From positions 62,001 through 126,000 of the forward strand of contig JAQMWT010000361.1 in NCBI GenBank assembly GCA_029834535.1: a DNA stretch of 64,000 nt. Direction: 5' to 3'. How positions within the stretch are numbered: the first letter of the stretch is position 1; each line of letters opens with the position of its first letter. Below are positions 10,008 through 58,283 of the stretch, piece after piece. The notes beneath the pieces are model-generated. The model saw only the letters and a program-made list of their open reading frames with translations, searched no databases and was not told the DNA's origin. This DNA comes from Chrysophaeum taylorii (Eukaryota > Sar > Pelagophyceae > Pelagomonadales > Pelagomonadaceae). Made by a program: the position numbers and the translations under genes.

Positions 10008-11266
10008 TCATCTTCGTCGGGAAGAGGCGGCGGCGTCGTTGTCCCGAGAAGGAGGAGGCCGGGCGAGGCCGTTCGCCCGACTCAAGGAGTCGCCCAAAAC
10101 CAAGAGCGCAGAGGCACCCAGAAGTGTGGCGAGTCCTGCGAAGGCACAGTCGAGGCCAGGCACTTCCTTGGCATAGGCGTCGGCGATGAGGCCGAGGAGA
10201 AAAGGAGCGACAACGTAGGTCGCGTCGGCAAAGGCACGGGGAAGCGCGAGGGTGGTGGCGACGTCGTCGTCGGCGCCTGCCAGGAGCTGCGCGATAGCCG
10301 TAAGCGCGGGTCCCTGGACGGCGACGGCGGCGGACCAGAGAGCGACGAGCGCGGTGAACGCGTCGGAGCCTCCCGCGCCGCAGGCGGTCGGGACGAGCAC
10401 GAGGGCAAGGCCGGCAACGAGGCCGGAGCCCAGCGCGGTCGCTCTCGCGCCAGCCCGGTCGATCAGGAGGCCGCCAACGGGCGCGGCAACAAGGCCCGAG
10501 ATGGCGGCGATCGAGAGGACGAGGCCGGCCGCCGCGGGAGACCCGTCGTAGAGCCGCGCCGCGAGGAGCGGGACGCTGGCAATCTTGGCCGCGAAGCCGA
10601 AGCGCACCCCGCACTCGCAGGCGCACAGGGCGCGCCAGCGGTCGTCGCCAAGGAGGCGCGGCCAGACGCGATCGTCGCTGTTAATGGTGGCGACGACTTT
10701 GGGCGCCGTCTCGGGGAGTGGGGCGTAGAGCGCGAGCGCACAGAGCGCGGCGACACTGACGCATAGAAAGTTTGCGCGGATGCCGAACTCTTCCGTGACG
10801 ACGCCGCCGACGCGCGCGCCGATGGCGATGCCCAACGCGGCGATCGTCTGCTGCGCGGCGAGCGCGCGGCCGCGGAGCGCCGGGACACGATTAGCCATGT
10901 CGGCGAGCATTCCCCGCTCGCCCGCCTCGCTGACGCTCCGCCCGATCCCCAGCAACACTCTCGACGCCCCGAGCGTCGCAAAGTCCCCGGCGACGGCCGT
11001 GCCGTAGTCTGCGACGGCGATCAGGCCCATTCCCCACATCATCGGACGCTTGCGCCCGGCGTCGGCAGCGCGCCCCGCGACGCGCGACACCGCGACCATC
11101 GCCGCCGCCGGCGCCGCGATCACCACGCCCGAGCTCGCCGAGCTGAGGCCAATCGCCGACGCGTACAGCGGGATAGCGGGAATCACGGCGCCGACGCCAG
11201 TGTACAGAACCAGCTGCGCGCTCATCAGGAGCCCGAACGGAATCCACTCGACTTCCCCCTCTTTGT

Positions 11267-11299
<33 letters not shown>

Positions 11300-11390
11300 A
11301 GACCACCACGCGACGCCGGACGAAGGATCGAGGCGGGGGGGCCAAGGCCGTCACGGCGGCGCCCGCGACGAAGATGACCGCACACCTCAT
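10008..11390 (-). CDS. Major facilitator superfamily transporter
   Basis: A 460-residue frame from ATG 11390. Residues 1-40 hold a hydrophobic leader (MRCAVIFVAGAAVTALAPP) and a basic, serine-rich segment, which could be an ER signal plus plastid transit peptide (inference). The Ser run is coded by a CTG/CAG repeat on the plus strand. About twelve membrane spans follow. MFS signatures are seen in loop 2-3 (GRAADAGRKRPMMWGMG) and helix 5 (GARVGGVVTEEFGIRANF). The second half repeats the pattern (GGLLIDRAGARATALG). It resembles drug/H+ antiporter-like MFS members; the substrate is unknown. It is divergent from NOP16 with only 40 bp between the start codons. An upstream in-frame extension to 11609 overlaps NOP16 and is rejected. 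Confidence 0.82.
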
Positions 11391-11430
11391 GGAATAAAAC
11401 CCAGGGTTTGGATTACAATTCCAGAGGAAG
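11391..11430. promoter_or_regulatory. 40-bp divergent promoter with palindrome AAACCCAGGGTTT
   Basis: The only DNA between the MFS and NOP16 start codons. It contains the perfect inverted repeat AAACCC-A-GGGTTT (11397-11409), overlapping AGGGTTTGGATTA (11403-11415). A near-identical motif, AGGGTTTAGATTA, sits in the 47-bp divergent promoter at 32543-32555. It resembles the telo-box of plant growth-related promoters. A shared regulatory role is inferred. Confidence 0.5.
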
Positions 11431-11981
11431 ATGGTCAAGCACTCGCGTCGCCGGGCGACGCGACCAGTCGTGACGCGGAAGAGCAGTACCCAAAAAAAGT
11501 TCTTCAAGAAGACGCCGCACAATGATGCCGATGTCGCGAAGGTCGGCGATGGTCTTGCACCGCAGATGGTCCGTCGCAGGTCTGGAACCAGCGAAAGTCG
11601 CGCAACCACAACATGCGAACCTTGGGCTTGGCGTGCGACGTCAACAAACTCTCGTGCGTGTCACCGCACCCGCATTCTTTGCCATCGACACGCAGGCGGG
11701 CGACCACGGAACCCAAGCTCGCGATATTCGAGGTACCGCAGCCAGAGGATCTCGAAAAGGTCGGGACAAACGCCCGGAGAAACCCCCTCGCCGAGGAAAA
11801 GCAACGATACATCGCAAAACTCATCGCCAAGCACGGCGAGGATTTCGATGCGATGGCGCGGGACATCAAGCGCAACGTCCAGCAATTCACGGCAACCAGA
11901 CTCCGAAACATGACTGCCAAGTTTCTTCGCCTCGACGACAAGCACCGCGCCGTTCCCATCCCCGCCCGGTTGAGAGGATAA
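11431..11981 (+). CDS. NOP16: Nucleolar protein 16 (NOP16), ribosome biogenesis
   Basis: Three exons, 11431-11541, 11580-11653 and 11696-11981, with introns of 38 and 42 nt that keep phase. The product is about 156 residues, near the family length. The basic N-terminus (MVKHSRRRATRP) is followed across the first splice by KVWNQRKSRNHNMRTLGLA and DVNKLS, matching the conserved W-(D/N)-(K/Q)-R-K-S block of NOP16. The C-terminus IAKLIAKHGEDFDAMARDIK, then NVQQFTATRLRNM, is the strongest family signature. NOP16 acts in 60S pre-ribosome assembly in the nucleolus. Its telo-box-like promoter motif would fit a ribosome-biogenesis gene. The second intron is a multiple of three, so retention would also stay in frame. 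Confidence 0.9.
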
Positions 11982-44359: not shown

Positions 44360-47300
44360 ATGGCGGCCGATGTGCTAGACCTGGCTGGGACGCCGCTCAC
44401 GGACGCGGCATTCCGGGGGCTCGTGCACCGCGGAGTGCGCGAGCTACGGATCGACCGCACAGGTCTCACGGACGTGGCAATGCGCATCATCTCCAAGAGC
44501 GACATGCGGCTCGAGATCATGTCCGCGACGCATCTGCCGATCACTGATCTCGGGGCGTCAGCCGTCGTGCGCACCAGTGTCTCGTCTGAAAACTCCAATC
44601 AGTGACTCTCGCATCTAGGTGCGCTCCATGCCGCTTCGCGAACTCGACTTGTCGTACTGCGCACGTCTGGGGGGGGAGGTGTTCAGCAAGGTACGCGGGC
44701 TGCGGGCGGTTGCGCTTGGGGGCTTGCCTCGTGTCGACGACGACGTGTTCGCGGATCTTCTGGCGAACAATGATCTCCAAAAGCTTGAGCTGCGGGACGC
44801 CGCAGTGACTGACCGGTCTGCGCGCGCGTTGACGTCGACCAAGCTCGCGTGGGGCCGCAAGCGCCGAGAGCTGCGCCTCACCGAGCTCACGATCGAGAGG
44901 TGCGCTAAGATCACCGACGTTTTCGTCGAGCGCCTCGCCAAATGCCCTCTAGTTCGCGTCACGCTGCGCGACGTGGAGGTGCGAGGGTTGGGCTGGCTCA
45001 AACGCGTCGAGTTCCTCGACGCGAGCCGGACGGCGGTGAGCGATTTGCGCGGCCTGCCCAAGACACTTCGCGCGTTAGACGTGTCCGAGTGCAAGATCAC
45101 GCAATTCATCGAGTGCCGAGATCTTCGCTCGTTTAAGGCCAACAAGACCACATTGAGAGACCCAATCGCCCTCGCGTCGAACCCGCTTCGCGAACTCTCG
45201 CTGAGCCGCTGCCCGCTGTCCGACAAGTGCGCGGTTCTTTTGGTGAGACGACTCCGCCGTCTCCGGCGCCTCGATCTCTCATTCTCTATATCGTCAAGAG
45301 TTCTGCGGGAAATCGCTACTTTGACGTGCCTTGAGTTTTTGGATGTTTCGGGCATCGTTGATGAGGCGGCGGTACAGCTGCCGAGAGTGCGAGAATTACG
45401 AGCCACTGATTGCAATTTGAACTCGGCGGAACTACCGTGTGAAATTGTAGACGTTTCAAGATCGCGCGTAGGGACGGCGACGGCTTTGAAACTTGTCGAG
45501 AAAAATCTTGAGAAAATCACCTTGACGGGGTGTCCCATCGACTTTGAAAAGGTGCGCGAGAGGGTCACGGAGCATCCGTTTCTGTCGATGATCGAGCCGA
45601 CCGTTGTTGGGCGCTCTGCCGAGAATCAAATGGCTCTCGACGAGTGGCGGGAGAAGATGCGCCACAGAGCCGCGATCGTCATCGGAGGTTTTTTTGCTAC
45701 GTTCTTCAAGTCGCCAGCGGAGGAGGAGCCTGAGCCTGACGACGAGCCTGCTGTCGAAGGAGGAGAAGACGTGCCTCCCGAGATCCCAAAGGTGCAGAGG
45801 ACACTGCCGGACGTCGGAAGACCGGAGGTGCGGTCGTGCGAGCCGCTCGAACAGCCGACTCTCGCTCCCGTGATCCCAAAATCGTTTCTGCTGCTCAAAA
45901 TATTCCGGAAGTGGCAGGCTTACAAACGGGAGCTCCCATGGGCTGCCGCGGACGCGCTCTTTAAGCGACGAAGACGACCATTGTTCGCTTTGTGGAAACG
46001 CCACGCCAAGCTAGCTGTGCGGAGACGCCGACGGCTCGTCGCCGTGTTCCTTCAATGCGTCAGCGCGGAGTCGTACTGCGGCGAGCTGCGAGTAAAGGCA
46101 GAGCTCGCGGAGCGTCACTTCCGACGAAAGAAGCTGCGTCAGCACTGGCCATTAGCGATTGTTGGACCCAACAGATACGTCCTTGCCCTCGCGGCGATCC
46201 GCCGGCGACGATCTGCCGCTCTGGTCCCGCGAGTTTTTGAGGCCTTCTGCATCTACAGACTCCACAGAATCCACCAGCGCCGTAGGAGCCACATCCCAAC
46301 AGGGCCGCGATTTGCTGTGCGACGCATCCACCGCGTCGCCGTGATGCGAATCCGCGAGCGGAGAGCGTCCGAGATCGCCGACGAGTTTTGGAGCGAGAGA
46401 CGGCTAACGTTGGCACCACTCTCGAGATGGCGTCTCGTGCGAAAGCACCTCAGACCAGCCATGGCTCTGGCCGAGGACCACTACGAGACCTCGTTGCAAC
46501 TCCGATTTGAGCGAAGCTGGCCGGCTTGGTTGGCCGTACTCGATCGCGCTCGGAAAAGAGCACGGCTACGTCGAAGCCAGCAGGCAGTCGAAACCAGCGT
46601 GCTCTTGTTGTTGTTGTTGTTGTTGTTGTGACGAAGTCGTCTTTGTAGATGTGAGTGAAAAAGAGCTCGCAGAAATCATCAATCTCGCGACAGGTAAAAG
46701 ATCTCGCGAGGCATCGGTTCGCAATGCGGTCTTTGTGGCGGTTCCGGAGTGGGCTGCTCAGCGCGCGCGCCGAGCGGGTCGTCATTGCTGTGTTGCTCTC
46801 GGTGGCAACGGAGGTGGCCGGGACGATTGGCCTCACGGCGTCCATCGTGACGCAGAGAGAGGCAATTTTGGCTTCGGTGGCCGCTGCGAGGGCTCGAGTG
46901 ACACTGAGCCTCGGCGAACGGCGCGACTTTTCGTTAGAGCAGTGGGAGCGGAGCGCTGACGAATGCATTCTCACGCAACGTGCTGCTCTACGGCTGCAGA
47001 CAGCGTACCGAAGGGCACGCGACGCGCGTCTGGTCGAAGAGTATCGTGCGTGGCGGGACTTTGCAGTTTTGGTGCTCCAAAAGAACGTCCGACGATGGTT
47101 CGCTCAACGGCAACTCTTTAAACTTCGGCGGCACCGGGTCCTTCGGGAGACAGTCACAGCCGAAAACGAGCGGCTCGCGATGGAATCCGAGGAAGAAGAA
47201 ACTCGAGAGTTTCTTTATTTGGAGATAATGTGGCGCCGCGTCGAGAACCTCGTCCGCCGAAAATTGGCTTGGAAGCGAACCGCAACGCTCCGGGCGGAAA

Positions 47301-50300
47301 TCACCAAACACAAACAGCGAGCGTTTCTTACCAAAAGAGGCGCAGACATCGAGGAGATGCAGCGCCGCGAGCAACAAAGAGCGTTGGACGAAATTCGAGA
47401 GACTGAGGCTGCGTTGGCCATTCAGCGGCGCTTTCGAGGCGCGGTCGGGCGACGAAGGTTCAGGAACAAGCTGCACGTGCAATTGGACGCGCTCGCAGCC
47501 ATACGATGCCAGACGGCGTACAGAGCGGCGATGGGCCGCAGGAAGGCTGCGGCAATGCGGCGGACGATCGCGGCGCAACAATACTTTCGAGCGAACCGAC
47601 GAGTGCAAGGCGCCGTGTTGCGGTTGCTCGGAAAGAAACAACGAAAAACGCAACGCGAACTGCTGCGAGTGTTGGTCCCACTCGGGCTAGATCCTTTGTC
47701 GTTTACATTATCGCTCAAAGCGCAGCTCCGCGATCTTCGCGCCGATATGCTGCGGAAACCTGTGCCGCCCGTCGATTGCGGCGATCCCGTCCAACACCGC
47801 TCTGGAAAAACGGCGTTCCTTGTGGCGATCGACAAGTCAATCCCGGAAAACCCCGTGGCCGAGCTGACTTTTGATGATGACGGCGGGCGTTCGTCCGTGC
47901 CCGTCGATGCGTTAGTCAAGTTCGAGCGAGCAGCCAAGCGCAAGATTCGCATATTTTCGGCCGCGGACAGGGCGGCGTTAAAAATACAATTGCTTGCGCG
48001 CCGCCGACAGGCGATGCGACGCGTAGCGAGACACAGATATGCCTTTTGGCGAGATTCCCACGCCAAACGGCGCGTCCTTTTGGCCGTGTTGACTTCGTTT
48101 GACGCGTTGCAACACGACGCCGTTCGCGTGCTTCGTCGGTTGCACGGACTCCGATTGGAGCATTTTGATTTGCCAATTGTCCCTTCGGCCTTTGCCAAAG
48201 TTCAAAGAGATAAGCGGCTCGAGCGCCAGATCAAAGCCGAGCTCAAACTACGCGCGCACTTACGGGCGAAGCGAGTCCGACATTTGCGGAAAGGTGCCCG
48301 CCCGAACAACGCCGTCAAAAAGGCGCTCTTCGGGACCCAAACAATGACGACCGTGAGAGACAGCGAGGCCGACGAACGCGACTGGGCGCGATTCCTCAAC
48401 GCAGCGCCTCCGGCGCGCCAGATGCGAACTCGCTGGGCACCACCGTTTCTCCATGCACATTTTCTCTTTGGCGCGGACGCCGTGCTCGCTTTGGCCGTCC
48501 GCAAGAAGCTTGCTACGGCTGCGACGAGCGTCCGCGCCAAGCCGATTGATATCTCCACGCAGTTTGGAAGATCTCCACACCTTCGTGTTCGCGAGGTCGC
48601 GTTTTACCACGGCACTTGGCCCGAGGGCGAAGGATTCCTCGAATTTCTCGACGGCTACGGCTGCGAAGAGGAAAAAACTCTTCGAGTCCGCATCATCCGT
48701 GCCCAAGACCTCCGCGCCAGCGATTTGTCCACGAGCGACCCCTACGTCCGAATAAAGTGCAACGGACGGACCTTCCGCTCGAGGACCAAGCTCCGGACGT
48801 TGAATCCAGTGTACGACGAAGTCTTCGAAGTGGACGTGAGCGACCCCAAGGAGCGCCTCGTGTTGGAACTTTGGGATTGGGACAAGTTTTCTGCTGACGA
48901 CTACCTCGGTAGCGCACAGATCCAGCTCGGGGCGATGGACCTCACGGCGCCAAGGCGATTTTGGATATACCTCGGGTGCGTACGTGTTTTCGTGTGCGTT
49001 TTTTTTTGGACGTCAAACGCGTGTGTTTTTGGACGTCGCAACTCCCGGTACTGGGACACAATGAGGGAATTAAATTTGTGTCTTCCCTTCGAATGATGCC
49101 ACGGTCTCTGTCTCGAGAAGTGCATCGGCAGCTTAACAACAGTGCCTGATCGCAAAAGAAAAAACAACAACAATATTCGTGTACTTTAAGTCGCGTTGAC
49201 AATGCAGACAAATGATAGGACCAGCAACAAGTCCGACGCACATAACTATAGTGCCCTTGATGATGGTCGCGCTTGCACACATTTGATCAGTCTGTCGTGT
49301 CGACGAACGGCTGGCAAACAAAAGTAACGAATTTATTGTTTCAAGTGGTTGCATCATAATCTCTGCTCTCTTGTAACTCTCTCCCTAGGGGACTGATGAT
49401 CCCACGTTTGTGTGTGTGTCTTTGTTTTTTTGTTTGTTTTTTTGTTTGTTTGTTTGTTTGCTATCAGAAGTCTTGTCTCACAGACTGGGGTTGGATGACC
49501 GATGACCTCAGGTACTACCCTTCGCGAGGGCAGCAGACGCACGACAGAGGAGCATTGGAGATAGAATTGCAGTGGATGGAGAAAATGAGTGCCGAGGATC
49601 TTGACCTGCGCAGAATGCGAAGACGGGCAGCCTTGCGATTGGAGACCTGGGCCCGCGGCCGCTTGGCCGTCATCCAGCGGCGTGCCTTGGAAAGGTCGCA
49701 CAGAACAGCGTTAAATTTCATTTTCGAGTCGGCTTCTACAATTCAAACGACTTGGCGGGCACTGATGTCGAGGAGATTCGTGAAGAAAGTGCGCGTCCAA
49801 CGACGAGCCGCGCTGCGGCTCCAGGCACTGTGCCGTCGGAAGCTCGCCTTTTTGGATTTGCAGGAGCTTCGTAAGCGGTTTCACGCAGCACTGACGATCC
49901 AGAGGATTCGGGGGGCAAGGCTGCTGGCCGCCCGACTGCGGCTCGTACGATGGATTGAGGAGACGTATGCCGCGTTGGTTATTCAAGCGTTCTCGCGCTC
50001 GCGCGTACGGCGGCCACGCGCTCGAAAAGGGCCTTTAGATTGGTTGGCATGGTACGGGCGTGATTTTTTGTATGGCTCCAAGCGACTTCGTCGTATCTGC
50101 CACAGAGCGATGCGGGTCCTTCTGAATACAGGAGGGAGAGTACGGACAGTCTATGGTCATGCTATCGTGATAAGCGTCAACAGATTCATCACGGTGATTT
50201 TGCTGCAGACGACGCTTGAGAGAACGACGAGGGCCGAGCGTGCGGAGAGACTCGCAACCGCGCCAAGACACACTGCCGTTCTCAGACCGGCGAGCCTCTT

Positions 50301-53300
50301 GACCAAGGTAACTATCCTCGAGAAAGTCGTGATGCTCCAGTGCCTCTTCAGATTCACCAAGGCCTGCCGACACGTGTTCTGTCTGTTCGAAGAGCACCGC
50401 GCCGCGCGACGCGTCCAGCGGATCGCGCGGAGGCGATTAGGCCAGAAAGGCAGAGCTGCGATTAAGATACAGACGCGAGTCCGCGTCGATTTAGGGCGCA
50501 AAGCGCTCCGAGAGCTGCGAAAAGAAGTTGCCGCAGCCGTAAAACTCCAGTTGAAACATCGCCAGCGGCTCGCTCTGCGACGTCTCGAGGACAAGCGATT
50601 GGCTGGATGCACTGCCTGCCTGTGTTCGTCTGAATACTTTCCGGCGTCTCTGACGCTGGAGAGCAAAGGCTTCTGGAGTTCGAGTCGACCCAACAAACAG
50701 TGGATCGTGTACGACATGCAGGACCCAACATGCATCGGCGTGTGCGATTTGATCTGCCCAGACAACACGACTGCTCCGCGATTTGTAACGATCGACGTCA
50801 GCGATTCTGCGACCGGATCATTCGAGACGCTTCTATCTGCCGAGCTTTGTGCCCCGCGGAGCCTTTCCGAGCTTCGGGTGCTCGAGAAAAACGCCGTCGG
50901 CCACAGGCTTCAACTCCCGCTGACGCTAAGGAGATTTTGGCGACTTTCATTTTTGAGAAACTGGGGGAGCACGGAGTGCGTCGCTCTCAGTCGAGTGCGG
51001 TGGCTTGTAGCCAAGGAGTTCTCGCCAAATATCCTGCGACATCCCGACTCACTTTTTGTCGAGGGACCGCAAGTCGGGGGTTGGGTGCAATTCGAGTTGT
51101 CGATCGACGCGTTCGCGTGGCCGCCGCCCGAGTTTGAATGGTTTCGAGACGGCCACCCTGTGGGAAAAGGTGCCACCCTCAACGTAAAAAGCCGCGTGCT
51201 TCGGAGCGCGGAGACTAAGAAGTTTAGATGCCCACACTGCCGAAAAGTTAACAGAGACGTGCCGAAAAACGTTTACCGCACCCTTTGCATGAACTGTCAG
51301 ACTGTCTTCAACTGGCCAGAAGTGACCTACAAGGAGCCTATTGACGATGGCGAGATCAGCCGACTAAAGCGTCAGCTCGAGCGCGAGAAGGAGGACTATG
51401 CGAGTCTCGAGCTCCAGTTGCGATTGCAGAATAAACCAATCCCCGATCGGGACCTTTCGCTCGAAAAAATGATTCAGCAAAAGGAAGAAGAGAAAAAGCG
51501 GCGAATATTTGAAGCGCTTAAGGAGCCGCGGCTGCTCGAATATGACTGCGAGGGAGTGTATACCTGCCACGTGTCAAACATGCGCCGAACGATTCGACGA
51601 ACTGTTATTTCGGAGCCGGCAGCCATATTGGTCGGCGACCCCCCGCCCTTGAAGACAAAAGTCGTGAGTGACTTCAGGCCGAAACCGCACCGTCGAAGAA
51701 AACACTTCGAAAGGTACGTGTCAGTACACGGTTTTTTTCGCCGAGGTGTCGTCTCGGGAGAAGTTATCCTTCGCTACGCGTCGGGCGACACTTACTGCGG
51801 GCCTATAGTCCCCGAGAAATTGCTCGACCATATGGGAGTATCGCGTCCAGGAGCAGACCACTGGGGCTTGTGGATCATGCCGGATGGCACGAGGTACGAA
51901 GGAGCGACTGTGGACAACCATTTCGATACGAGGAGAATAGTCGGTGACTTTCGGGTAACGACGACGACAGAAGTCTACGACGGCCAGATCGTCGACGGCA
52001 AACGCCACGGCTTCGGAGAGTGAGTGCTTGTGTGTGGTTGTTGTGCGCTGCCTTGGATAATAATAGCACCGGTGTGCTGCTCGCGAAGTATCAGGCGCAG
52101 CGGTGAAACGCTTGAGTCGCTGTCGCGAAGTATCAGGCGCAGCGGTGAAACGCTTGAGTCGCTGTCGCGACTTTCATTGCGGTGCACGCGATTGTCTCGA
52201 GATAGGAACGAAACGCGCGATCATTGCTTGAACAGATGTATTTGTTGTGCTGTATGCAATGAACTCGCGCGATCACTGGAACATAGGTGTCGGTATCCGG
52301 ACGGATCTTTGTACAGTGGGGAGTGGCACCAAGGCCTTCGACAGGGCTTCGGTCGATTGGAAGGATCTTCAGTCTACGAAGGAGACTGGGATAGGGACGC
52401 GATCCACGGCCAGGGGACGTGGCATTGGAGGGATGGCTCTTCGTATTGCGGTGAAGCGGTGCACGGGATTCGGCAGGGAGTGGGCGTCTATGTGTCAGAG
52501 AAGCACGACGTGTTCATCGGCGAGTTCGCTGACAATCAGATGCATGGGAAAGGAGTTTTATCATACCACGACGGCTCCCGTTTTGAGGGCGAGCTTTCGA
52601 TGAATAGCCGCATTACTGGCGTTTTCACTGACATCCACGGGGTCCGTTACTTTGGAACCTACAGAGACGGGGTCCGCCACGGCGAGTTTCTGGTTCGGAG
52701 ACCGGTGGGCGACGCAGACGAGATTCAACAAGGCTTGTGGGAGAACGGGGAGTTTATCGAGTGGACGACGCTCCCGTTGAATCCGATCGCGACAGAACAG
52801 TTCTGTTCCGTGTTTGAAAATGAGGAAGAATATGATGGAGTTTATGCGCTAATGGTCGCGACCAGAGTTGATTCTGCGCGTATTGCCGTCGGAAAGCTGT
52901 CTCCGCAGCACGCAGAAATTTTCACGCGTACGCGCGCGTGTGTGTGTGTGCCACTACGCGTGTTGTGAAGTGTGTGTGACACTCGCGTGAACCAACCACG
53001 CAGGTTGCCCGCCGATTGCCGTTGTTGCCGCCAGGGGTGCAACCGGACCATCCGAGGGTGGTGCCTATCGTAAAAAGGATTCGCCGGGAAGGTGGGAATC
53101 TTGTGGCGAAGGATACGTACGAAGAGGCGAAGGCCGAACTGCTGCGTATCGAGCCCGAACTTGCAGAGGTCGCGACAGCGATGCGAGCGGCACGCGCGGA
53201 AATCGAACGTCACAGCGACTTTGTCAGCGAGAAAGAACGAATAGTGAGTGGTTGTGATCTGGAGATTTCAACGCTGGAAAAGAAGAAGCGACTCGTCGAA

Positions 53301-57013: not shown

Positions 57014-58111
57014 TCACTCGCGCGGTTGTGAGGGCGATGCAGGCCACTTTTCTTCGTCAAAGCGGGAAGAAGAAGAAGAAGAAGAAGGGAGATCGGGGGG
57101 CATCGTAGTTGGAGGGAGCCAGCGCGCAAAGTGGAGTTGCGCGGTCGGTACTTCCTCGACCGAGGCAAGGAAATACCAGGTCTTGACGATTGGATCCCAT
57201 CGCGCGCCCTTTGCCTTAGCATCCTCTTTTTCCGAGTACGGGCAGTTGAGGTCTATTCGCACGAGCGTGCCGGACGGGACCTGGATGCCTCCCTTGGCGA
57301 CGTCGTCGTCGTCGGTTGCGTTTTGGGGGGATGGCCGGAGAACGCCGGTTGCCCAATCGATGGGTTCGAGATGTCGTTTCTCGAGCTCGATGTTGGCCTT
57401 GGTGAAATGGCCTGACCCAAAAAAGCCGCGTCGCGCCGAGAGCGGGCTCGGGTGCGGGGCTTCGAGCGCGATTGTCGTCGAGGCAGCGTCGAGGAGGCCG
57501 CCGACTTTCTTGCGCGCGTGGGCGCCCCAGAGCAGAAAGATGACGCCGCGCGGCACGAGCGCGGCGACGACCGCGTCGCTGAACTCTTCCCAGCCGCGGT
57601 CCTTATGGCTCGTCGGCTGGCCGGCTCTCACGGTGAGCAACGTGTTAAGAAGCAAGACGCCTCGCGAAGCCCACGGCGACAGGTCCCCGGCGTCGTCGTC
57701 GCGCTCGGGCAAGCTGAGGTCTCGCCGGAGCTCCTTGAGAATGTTGCGAAGTGACGGCGGCGTTGGGCACTCGCCAGCGACGGAGAACGCGAGACCGTCC
57801 GCTTGCCCCGGGCCGTGGTACGGGTCCTGGCCGACGATGACGACGCGAACGTCGTCAAAGTCAACCTCCCGCAGCGCCCGCAGCGTCCGGTCCGGCGGTG
57901 GGTACACCGTGTGCGCCGCGCGCTCCTTCGCGACAAATGCGCGCAGCGCGGCGTGTCGTTCCGTCGACAGCTCTTCCGCGAGCACTGACGACCACTTGGG
58001 CGGCAAACCCCACTCGTCTACGGCGGCGCCGTGTCGGACGACGTTCTGGCTTCGAAGAATGGGAGCCAGCAGCACCGAGCTCCGCCTCGCGAACGACAGC
58101 AACTTGCGCAT
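57014..58111 (-). CDS. UNG: Uracil-DNA glycosylase with C-terminal DUF5710-like extension
   Basis: A 365-residue frame. The N-terminal 30 residues (MRKLLSFARRSSVLLAPIL) look like an organelle presequence. Family 1 UDG motifs: catalytic GQDPYHG at residues 94-100, GVLLLNTLLTVRAG, WEEFSDAVV, IFLLWGAHAR and the DNA-binding HPSPLSA at 220-226. The enzyme removes uracil from DNA as the first step of base-excision repair. After the UDG core (ending near 255) comes VRIDLNCPYSEKEDAKAKGA followed by RWDPIVKTWYF (about 284-314), which fits the small DUF5710 module found in DNA-processing proteins. The tail ends with a Ser run (GAA/GAAG repeat on the plus strand). A 470-codon opposite frame is a shadow. 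Confidence 0.93.
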   Translation of the reverse strand: MRKLLSFARRSSVLLAPILRSQNVVRHGAAVDEWGLPPKWSSVLAEELSTERHAALRAFVAKERAAHTVYPPPDRTLRALREVDFDDVRVVIVGQDPYHGPGQADGLAFSVAGECPTPPSLRNILKELRRDLSLPERDDDAGDLSPWASRGVLLLNTLLTVRAGQPTSHKDRGWEEFSDAVVAALVPRGVIFLLWGAHARKKVGGLLDAASTTIALEAPHPSPLSARRGFFGSGHFTKANIELEKRHLEPIDWATGVLRPSPQNATDDDDVAKGGIQVPSGTLVRIDLNCPYSEKEDAKAKGARWDPIVKTWYFLASVEEVPTAQLHFARWLPPTTMPPDLPSSSSSSSRFDEEKWPASPSQPRE

Positions 58112-58283
58112 CGGTACGTGTCGCTTACCCCCTATAGCGAGGATAGCTGGGGCGGCACGAAAAGCGCCGTCGTCTAGTCCACGACAGGCACCGAAGCGTG
58201 TGAAGAAAGGCCGCTACACTACCCCCCGGCCGTCGCAAATTAGGACCCCAGTACGCCACGGATACTCAGCCACTTGCGCTTTA

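Follow-up and report, generated by a model that had tools for sequence, protein, structure and literature searches.

A putative Ig-like domain interrupted in its E-F turn by a predicted zinc ribbon and helical hairpin, within a scaffold-like protein of Chrysophaeum taylorii

Few protein folds are as common as the Ig fold, which usually varies mainly by the length of its loops, and many Ig domains do without the cysteine pair of strands B and F. The hybrid domain of integrin beta is an Ig-type sandwich whose insert is a large extracellular beta-I domain of another family, and it is not known to carry a zinc ribbon or a helical hairpin. That the hybrid domain carries an inserted beta-I domain, as an excerpt of one published account describes, makes it a likeness for the arrangement reported here, in that a beta-sandwich domain is interrupted by a whole inserted module (PMC9856412). 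In the literature library searched, nothing relevant turned up on Ig domains into which a zinc ribbon or finger has been inserted: one paper met there deals with TRIM proteins, and the passages found in others concern different proteins.

The pieces of the domain that we describe resemble two characterized families. From I-set Ig domains (PF07679; titin, Robo and VEGF receptors) we recognize the B-C-E and F motifs, the core Trp, the G-x-Y-x-C-x-V-x-N pattern and a G-strand-like end; unlike in those domains, Ile replaces the B-strand Cys, the Asp of D-x-G-x-Y is out of register as judged by eye, the E-F turn holds a 116-residue insert and the Pfam cut-off is missed. With the MJ0042 and Zn_ribbon_4 C4 ribbons (PF13717, TIGR02098) it shares two CxxC pairs 15 residues apart and short predicted strands, whereas here the putative ribbon is embedded in a different domain, with a helical hairpin after it, and the curated ribbon cut-offs are all missed.

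The window that we analysed is a stretch of 64,000 nucleotides, and the Ig-like region lies in a giant gene on its forward strand. GT-AG introns, recognized by eye, give the window a eukaryotic look and are present in this gene too. The features are as follows, with AF2 denoting AlphaFold2 and Ig rows the natural Ig domains supplied to one of its two runs.

About 44.6-55.9 kb, + strand: giant scaffold-like gene, its extent taken from an earlier note on this DNA and from the run of open frames
48677-48967, + strand: C2 domain of the same giant gene (Pfam E 7.6e-24)
49360-52023, + strand: open frame of 887 aa with no internal stop, a single exon of the giant gene, holding the entire Ig region
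50602-51030, + strand: tentative discoidin-like (F5/8 type C) region immediately upstream of the Ig domain (Pfam match over part of the model)
51082-51195, + strand: Ig-like first half (Pfam I-set match, 24-domain profile, AF2 strands with Ig rows)
51082-51102, 51130-51147, 51154-51168 and 51175-51195, + strand: predicted strands B, C (with the core Trp), C' and E of the first half (AF2 with Ig rows)
51196-51543, + strand: 116-residue insert separating strand E from strand F (limits as in the AF2 model; exon-like codon score)
51220-51318, + strand: predicted C4 zinc ribbon (CxxC pairs; Zn_ribbon_4 below cut-off)
51346-51522, + strand: predicted two-helix hairpin, with helix 1 at 51346-51426, a turn, and helix 2 at 51457-51522 (AF2)
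51544-51633, + strand: Ig-like second half (24-domain profile, alignments, AF2 with Ig rows)
51544-51579, then up to 51633, + strand: parts of the second half, namely the F strand DCEGVYTCHVSN and the G strand region up to AAILV (alignments, AF2 with Ig rows)
52024-52965, + strand: MORN-repeat frame of the same giant gene (Pfam E 1.4e-19)

The 5' part and the last bases of frame 49360-52023 are probably intron, as is the first part of the MORN frame; by eye, a donor GTGAGT stands near 52020 and an acceptor near 52286. Within this probable intron, at 52085-52165, a stretch of about 40 bases stands in two tandem copies (by eye), and far upstream, at 46605-46631, a TTG repeat ends the LRR frame with a leucine run just before the stop and is perhaps intron.

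The earlier note had proposed, from the letters of the sequence, two halves of an I-set domain separated by about 120 residues with a C4 ribbon and a charged coiled coil. All the motifs that it named are in place within frame 49360-52023: PPPEFEWFRDG at 51121-51153, GATLNV at 51169-51186, CPHC at 51229-51240 and CMNC at 51286-51297 with a spacer of 15 residues, and the F-strand stretch listed above.

I-set is the best Pfam Ig model for the first half and matches 34 residues, all in the first half, with E 0.0012 and 19.4 bits against a cut-off of 23.7 when a 247-aa stretch was searched; on the full 887-aa frame the match has E 0.024, again below the curated cut-off. The best PDB sequence matches of the first half are Ig domains. 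A PDB sequence search with the 247-aa stretch gave 29 listed matches at E <=10, and the best of these, a titin construct at 3e-4, is a sum over repeated domains with weak single stretches; it counts little alone because the PDB is rich in Ig domains. The second half by itself matched nothing in the Pfam models or the PDB sequences.

We therefore relied on two custom profiles, both run without filters and with each half scored separately. The first was built from 155 bacterial and viral Ig domain hits at 45 loci (L003-L047), with redundancy kept. T4 Hoc had been considered as a possible Ig seed and was dropped as being without the usual cysteine motif. With this profile the scores of the isolated halves were reached by 0/5000 shuffles (first half) and 2/5000 shuffles (second half), and in the whole 887-aa frame the first half ranked only fifth, and the two-part score second, among hits in the window's 618 stop-to-stop frames with a length of 60 aa or more. 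The second profile, of I-set type, was built from 24 Ig domains in five PDB chains, and residue shuffles reached its scores in 1/20000 cases for the first half and 0/20000 for the second; since the stretch and its cut points were picked after the motifs had been seen, neither set of shuffle tests is blind, and the window-wide ranking with the second profile is least affected. In that ranking the halves are the two best domain hits among the 618 frames (6.6 and 4.4 bits, the next being 3.7), and no other frame in the window scores like them. The register is correct, the first half corresponding to profile positions 3-35 and the second to 52-62, with the core Trp of strand C and the Y-x-C of strand F where the profile has them. 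At the level of sequence, these matches show two separated stretches that correspond, in order, to the region of strands B, C and E and to that of strand F in a single I-set profile, and both proposed halves, including the cysteine strand of the second, are borne out to that extent.

Alignment with natural Ig domains gives the same picture. Three MAFFT alignments were made: the first with 13 of 15 loci (L003-L017, omitting L011 and L015 as partial matches), the second with 28 of 50 loci (L003-L017 and L048-L082), and the third with 13 of those 50, chosen last as the cleanest rows. Each opens a long gap after strand E and before strand F, in or beside the connecting turn, and matches GVYTCHVSN to the F strand and SEPAAILV to the G strand; in the 28-locus alignment the last part of strand F and the FG turn aligned less cleanly. 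The Cys of the F strand is present, and with Ile at the B-strand position there is no B-F cysteine pair; by eye, one or both of these cysteines are missing in 11 of the 13 Ig rows of the first alignment.

Structure prediction, which the earlier note had proposed as a check, gave Ig-like strands with the ribbon between them when the input included an alignment with Ig domains, but not from the single sequence. From the single sequence (219 aa) AlphaFold2 returned a mean pLDDT of 45.5, with the Ig halves mostly below 30, the ribbon region at about 40-52 and confident helices at residues 109-135 and 146-166 (blocks of about 81-93). In the second run the 13 Ig domains of the third MAFFT alignment were supplied as rows, an input biased towards Ig, and the model (mean pLDDT 71.4, pTM 0.43) runs through strands B, C, C' and E into the ribbon and hairpin and on to strands F and G. 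Its first half consists of strands 21-27, 37-42, 45-49 and 52-58, its insert of ribbon strands and helices 109-135 and 146-167, and its second half of strands 175-186, 193-196 and 200-204. As the rows are themselves Ig domains, part of the strand pairing comes from the input. The hairpin reaches about 81-94 pLDDT for each block of ten residues, whether or not alignment rows were given. The second model shows that both halves can be threaded onto a single sandwich from which the insert loops out; it does not show that they have to be.

A Foldseek search with the model built on Ig rows returned 299 PDB matches at E <=10 and none of the 299 at 0.001; among the 50 matches listed, most are titled as Ig domains or antibody fragments, with exceptions that include 4r5o (three rows) and 6e57. 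For the second Ig domain of MALT1 (3bfo, 85 residues) the alignment spans 185 columns (TM 0.62 by target length, probability 0.99), and for the first Ig domain of Robo1 (2v9t, 107 residues) it spans 204 (TM 0.52, probability 0.60). As the columns outnumber the target residues, these alignments bridge a long stretch of the query, as the insert would predict; the rmsd of 17-18 means that the overall superposition is poor.

The strongest competing explanation takes only the first half as Ig, a remnant, with EGVYTCHVSN as a chance look-alike and the region as a series of independent pieces: half an Ig domain, a ribbon, a hairpin and a linker. The silence of Pfam and the PDB on the second half fits this, as do the failure of single-sequence AlphaFold2 to build a sandwich and a second-half profile match that spans only 11 residues. 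Yet a chance look-alike should not score at a level that so few shuffles reach with either profile, its profile position would have no reason to continue from that of the first half, and the G-strand-like SEPAAILV sits at the expected place for a G strand. We consider the remnant unlikely. The most reasonable explanation, and the best reading that the profile, alignment and structure evidence support, is that a C4 ribbon and a helical hairpin split an Ig-like domain. We infer with good support that the halves form one Ig beta sandwich in which the short E-F connection is replaced by ribbon and hairpin, and we regard this architecture by itself as quite probable. The hairpin brings both its ends to one place, as insertion into a turn needs, and the sandwich can therefore still close.

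A further possibility is that the insert is an optional in-frame intron (an exitron) whose removal from some or all transcripts leaves a plain Ig domain. The earlier note had dismissed a splicing artefact on the ground that everything lies in one frame, an argument that is insufficient by itself. Among 117-codon stretches sampled from the window (+ strand, any frame), 22% are open, whether by chance or for another reason; 17 in-frame GT..AG pairs whose lengths are multiples of three flank the insert (51184-51522 is one), and introns of this type occur elsewhere in the giant gene, by eye near 52020-52286. Codon usage, however, speaks for the note's conclusion. With exon and non-coding sets assigned by the analyst, the insert scores 0.284 bits per codon; the mean over 1971 overlapping exon stretches of the giant gene is 0.294, and the highest of 1075 overlapping non-coding stretches reaches -0.083. 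Because the insert's score is at the exon mean and above the non-coding maximum we read it as coding. In a separate codon scoring the insert is best of six frames in this frame (0.336); the first half scores 0.156 and the second half (51541-51660) only -0.023, yet the best of its six frames. The candidate acceptors inspected, moreover, come after purine-rich DNA, and the insert translates into a recognisable ribbon and hairpin. Optional splicing aside, the insert is coding, and we think it very unlikely that it is an exitron.

Within the insert of the interrupted Ig-like domain, the proposed C4 ribbon and the approximate distance between the halves hold up: 116 residues lie between the halves, and CPHC-x15-CMNC supplies two CxxC pairs together with short predicted ribbon strands. 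Zn_ribbon_4, run on 46 aa, matches with E 3.4e-4 and 20.9 bits, below its cut-off of 30.3, and NCBIfam gave weak matches only, with its ribbon models below cut-off. The profile searches of Ig and ribbon families proposed in the earlier note found matches in both, I-set and Zn_ribbon_4, but both below curated cut-offs. The proposed charged coiled coil is present as a helical region, which AlphaFold2 resolves into two helices joined by a turn; the hairpin stretch alone (51343-51540) has no Pfam match. That CPHC, the active-site motif of DsbA, might belong to a thioredoxin/DsbA-like domain instead is suggested by Pfam Thioredoxin_4 (E 4.1e-5, 24.3 bits, above the cut-off of 23.2, on a 117-aa excerpt), but this reading is scarcely credible, as the match drops below cut-off in longer context (20.8 and 16.2 bits), falls best on the linker and the unmatched hairpin after the ribbon, leaves the second CxxC to a C4 ribbon that Zn_ribbon_4 also matches, and meets predicted short strands and two long helices rather than the order of a thioredoxin fold.

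LRRs in the giant gene reach a best Pfam E of 5.2e-9, the IQ motifs are recognized by eye and by a weak Pfam match (E 0.085), and the coiled-coil end was seen by eye only. The F5_F8_type_C match at 50602-51030 has E 0.024 and 15.2 bits against a cut-off of 28.2, and RFWRLSFLRNWGST resembles, by eye, the end of this discoidin-like domain. Read from these sequence matches, the domain order may be LRR-IQ-C2-IQ-discoidin-Ig[ribbon-hairpin]-MORN-coiled coil. IQ, C2 and MORN are modules of cytosolic kinds, and since LRR, IQ, C2 and MORN accompany an Ig domain that has no core disulphide, we take that domain to be intracellular. We infer that it would lie within a calmodulin-, calcium- and membrane-linked scaffold, perhaps one of the flagellar or cortical apparatus. 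The architecture with an arm-like insert, a zinc ribbon and helical hairpin in the E-F turn of the Ig domain, seems to us reasonably likely.

As to what such an arm might do, the Ig sandwich would serve as a rigid mount, the arm would be fixed at its base by zinc, and the charged hairpin would project sideways as a docking rod able to pair with a helical partner or another copy. We offer this docking function, drawn from the predicted parts, tentatively. The arrangement may be common in its own lineage. A bolder proposal, which we also hold to be doubtful though possible, is that it represents a lineage-wide family of intracellular eukaryotic Ig domains with a ribbon-plus-hairpin arm in the E-F turn, in which the sandwich would be the mount for a laterally projecting docking rod on a calmodulin- and membrane-linked scaffold, an elaboration of Ig undescribed before. 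If the insertion is as described, a new docking part would have been built, unusually, from a very common fold, and the case would show how an Ig sandwich tolerates in its E-F turn a large module with its own metal site and helical arm. It would also provide a clear evolutionary marker among eukaryotic scaffold proteins, and would imply that split Ig domains of protists can escape profile searches; here Pfam saw one half, below cut-off.

Relatives were sought in viral contigs with the frame or with its Ig, insert and MORN parts and the IQ/C2 exon, and also in genome contigs and by tblastn in a phage collection; none was found, which says little as these are not eukaryotic genomes.

Elsewhere, Rfam at its gathering threshold gave nothing across the whole window. 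ARAGORN placed a tRNA-Trp at 11538-11622 on the minus strand, within an MFS transporter frame (10011-11660, minus strand), and this call is probably spurious. At 57017-58213, on the minus strand, a Uracil-DNA glycosylase superfamily domain (E 7e-16) and DUF5710 (E 1e-11) share one frame, a pairing that is unfamiliar to us.
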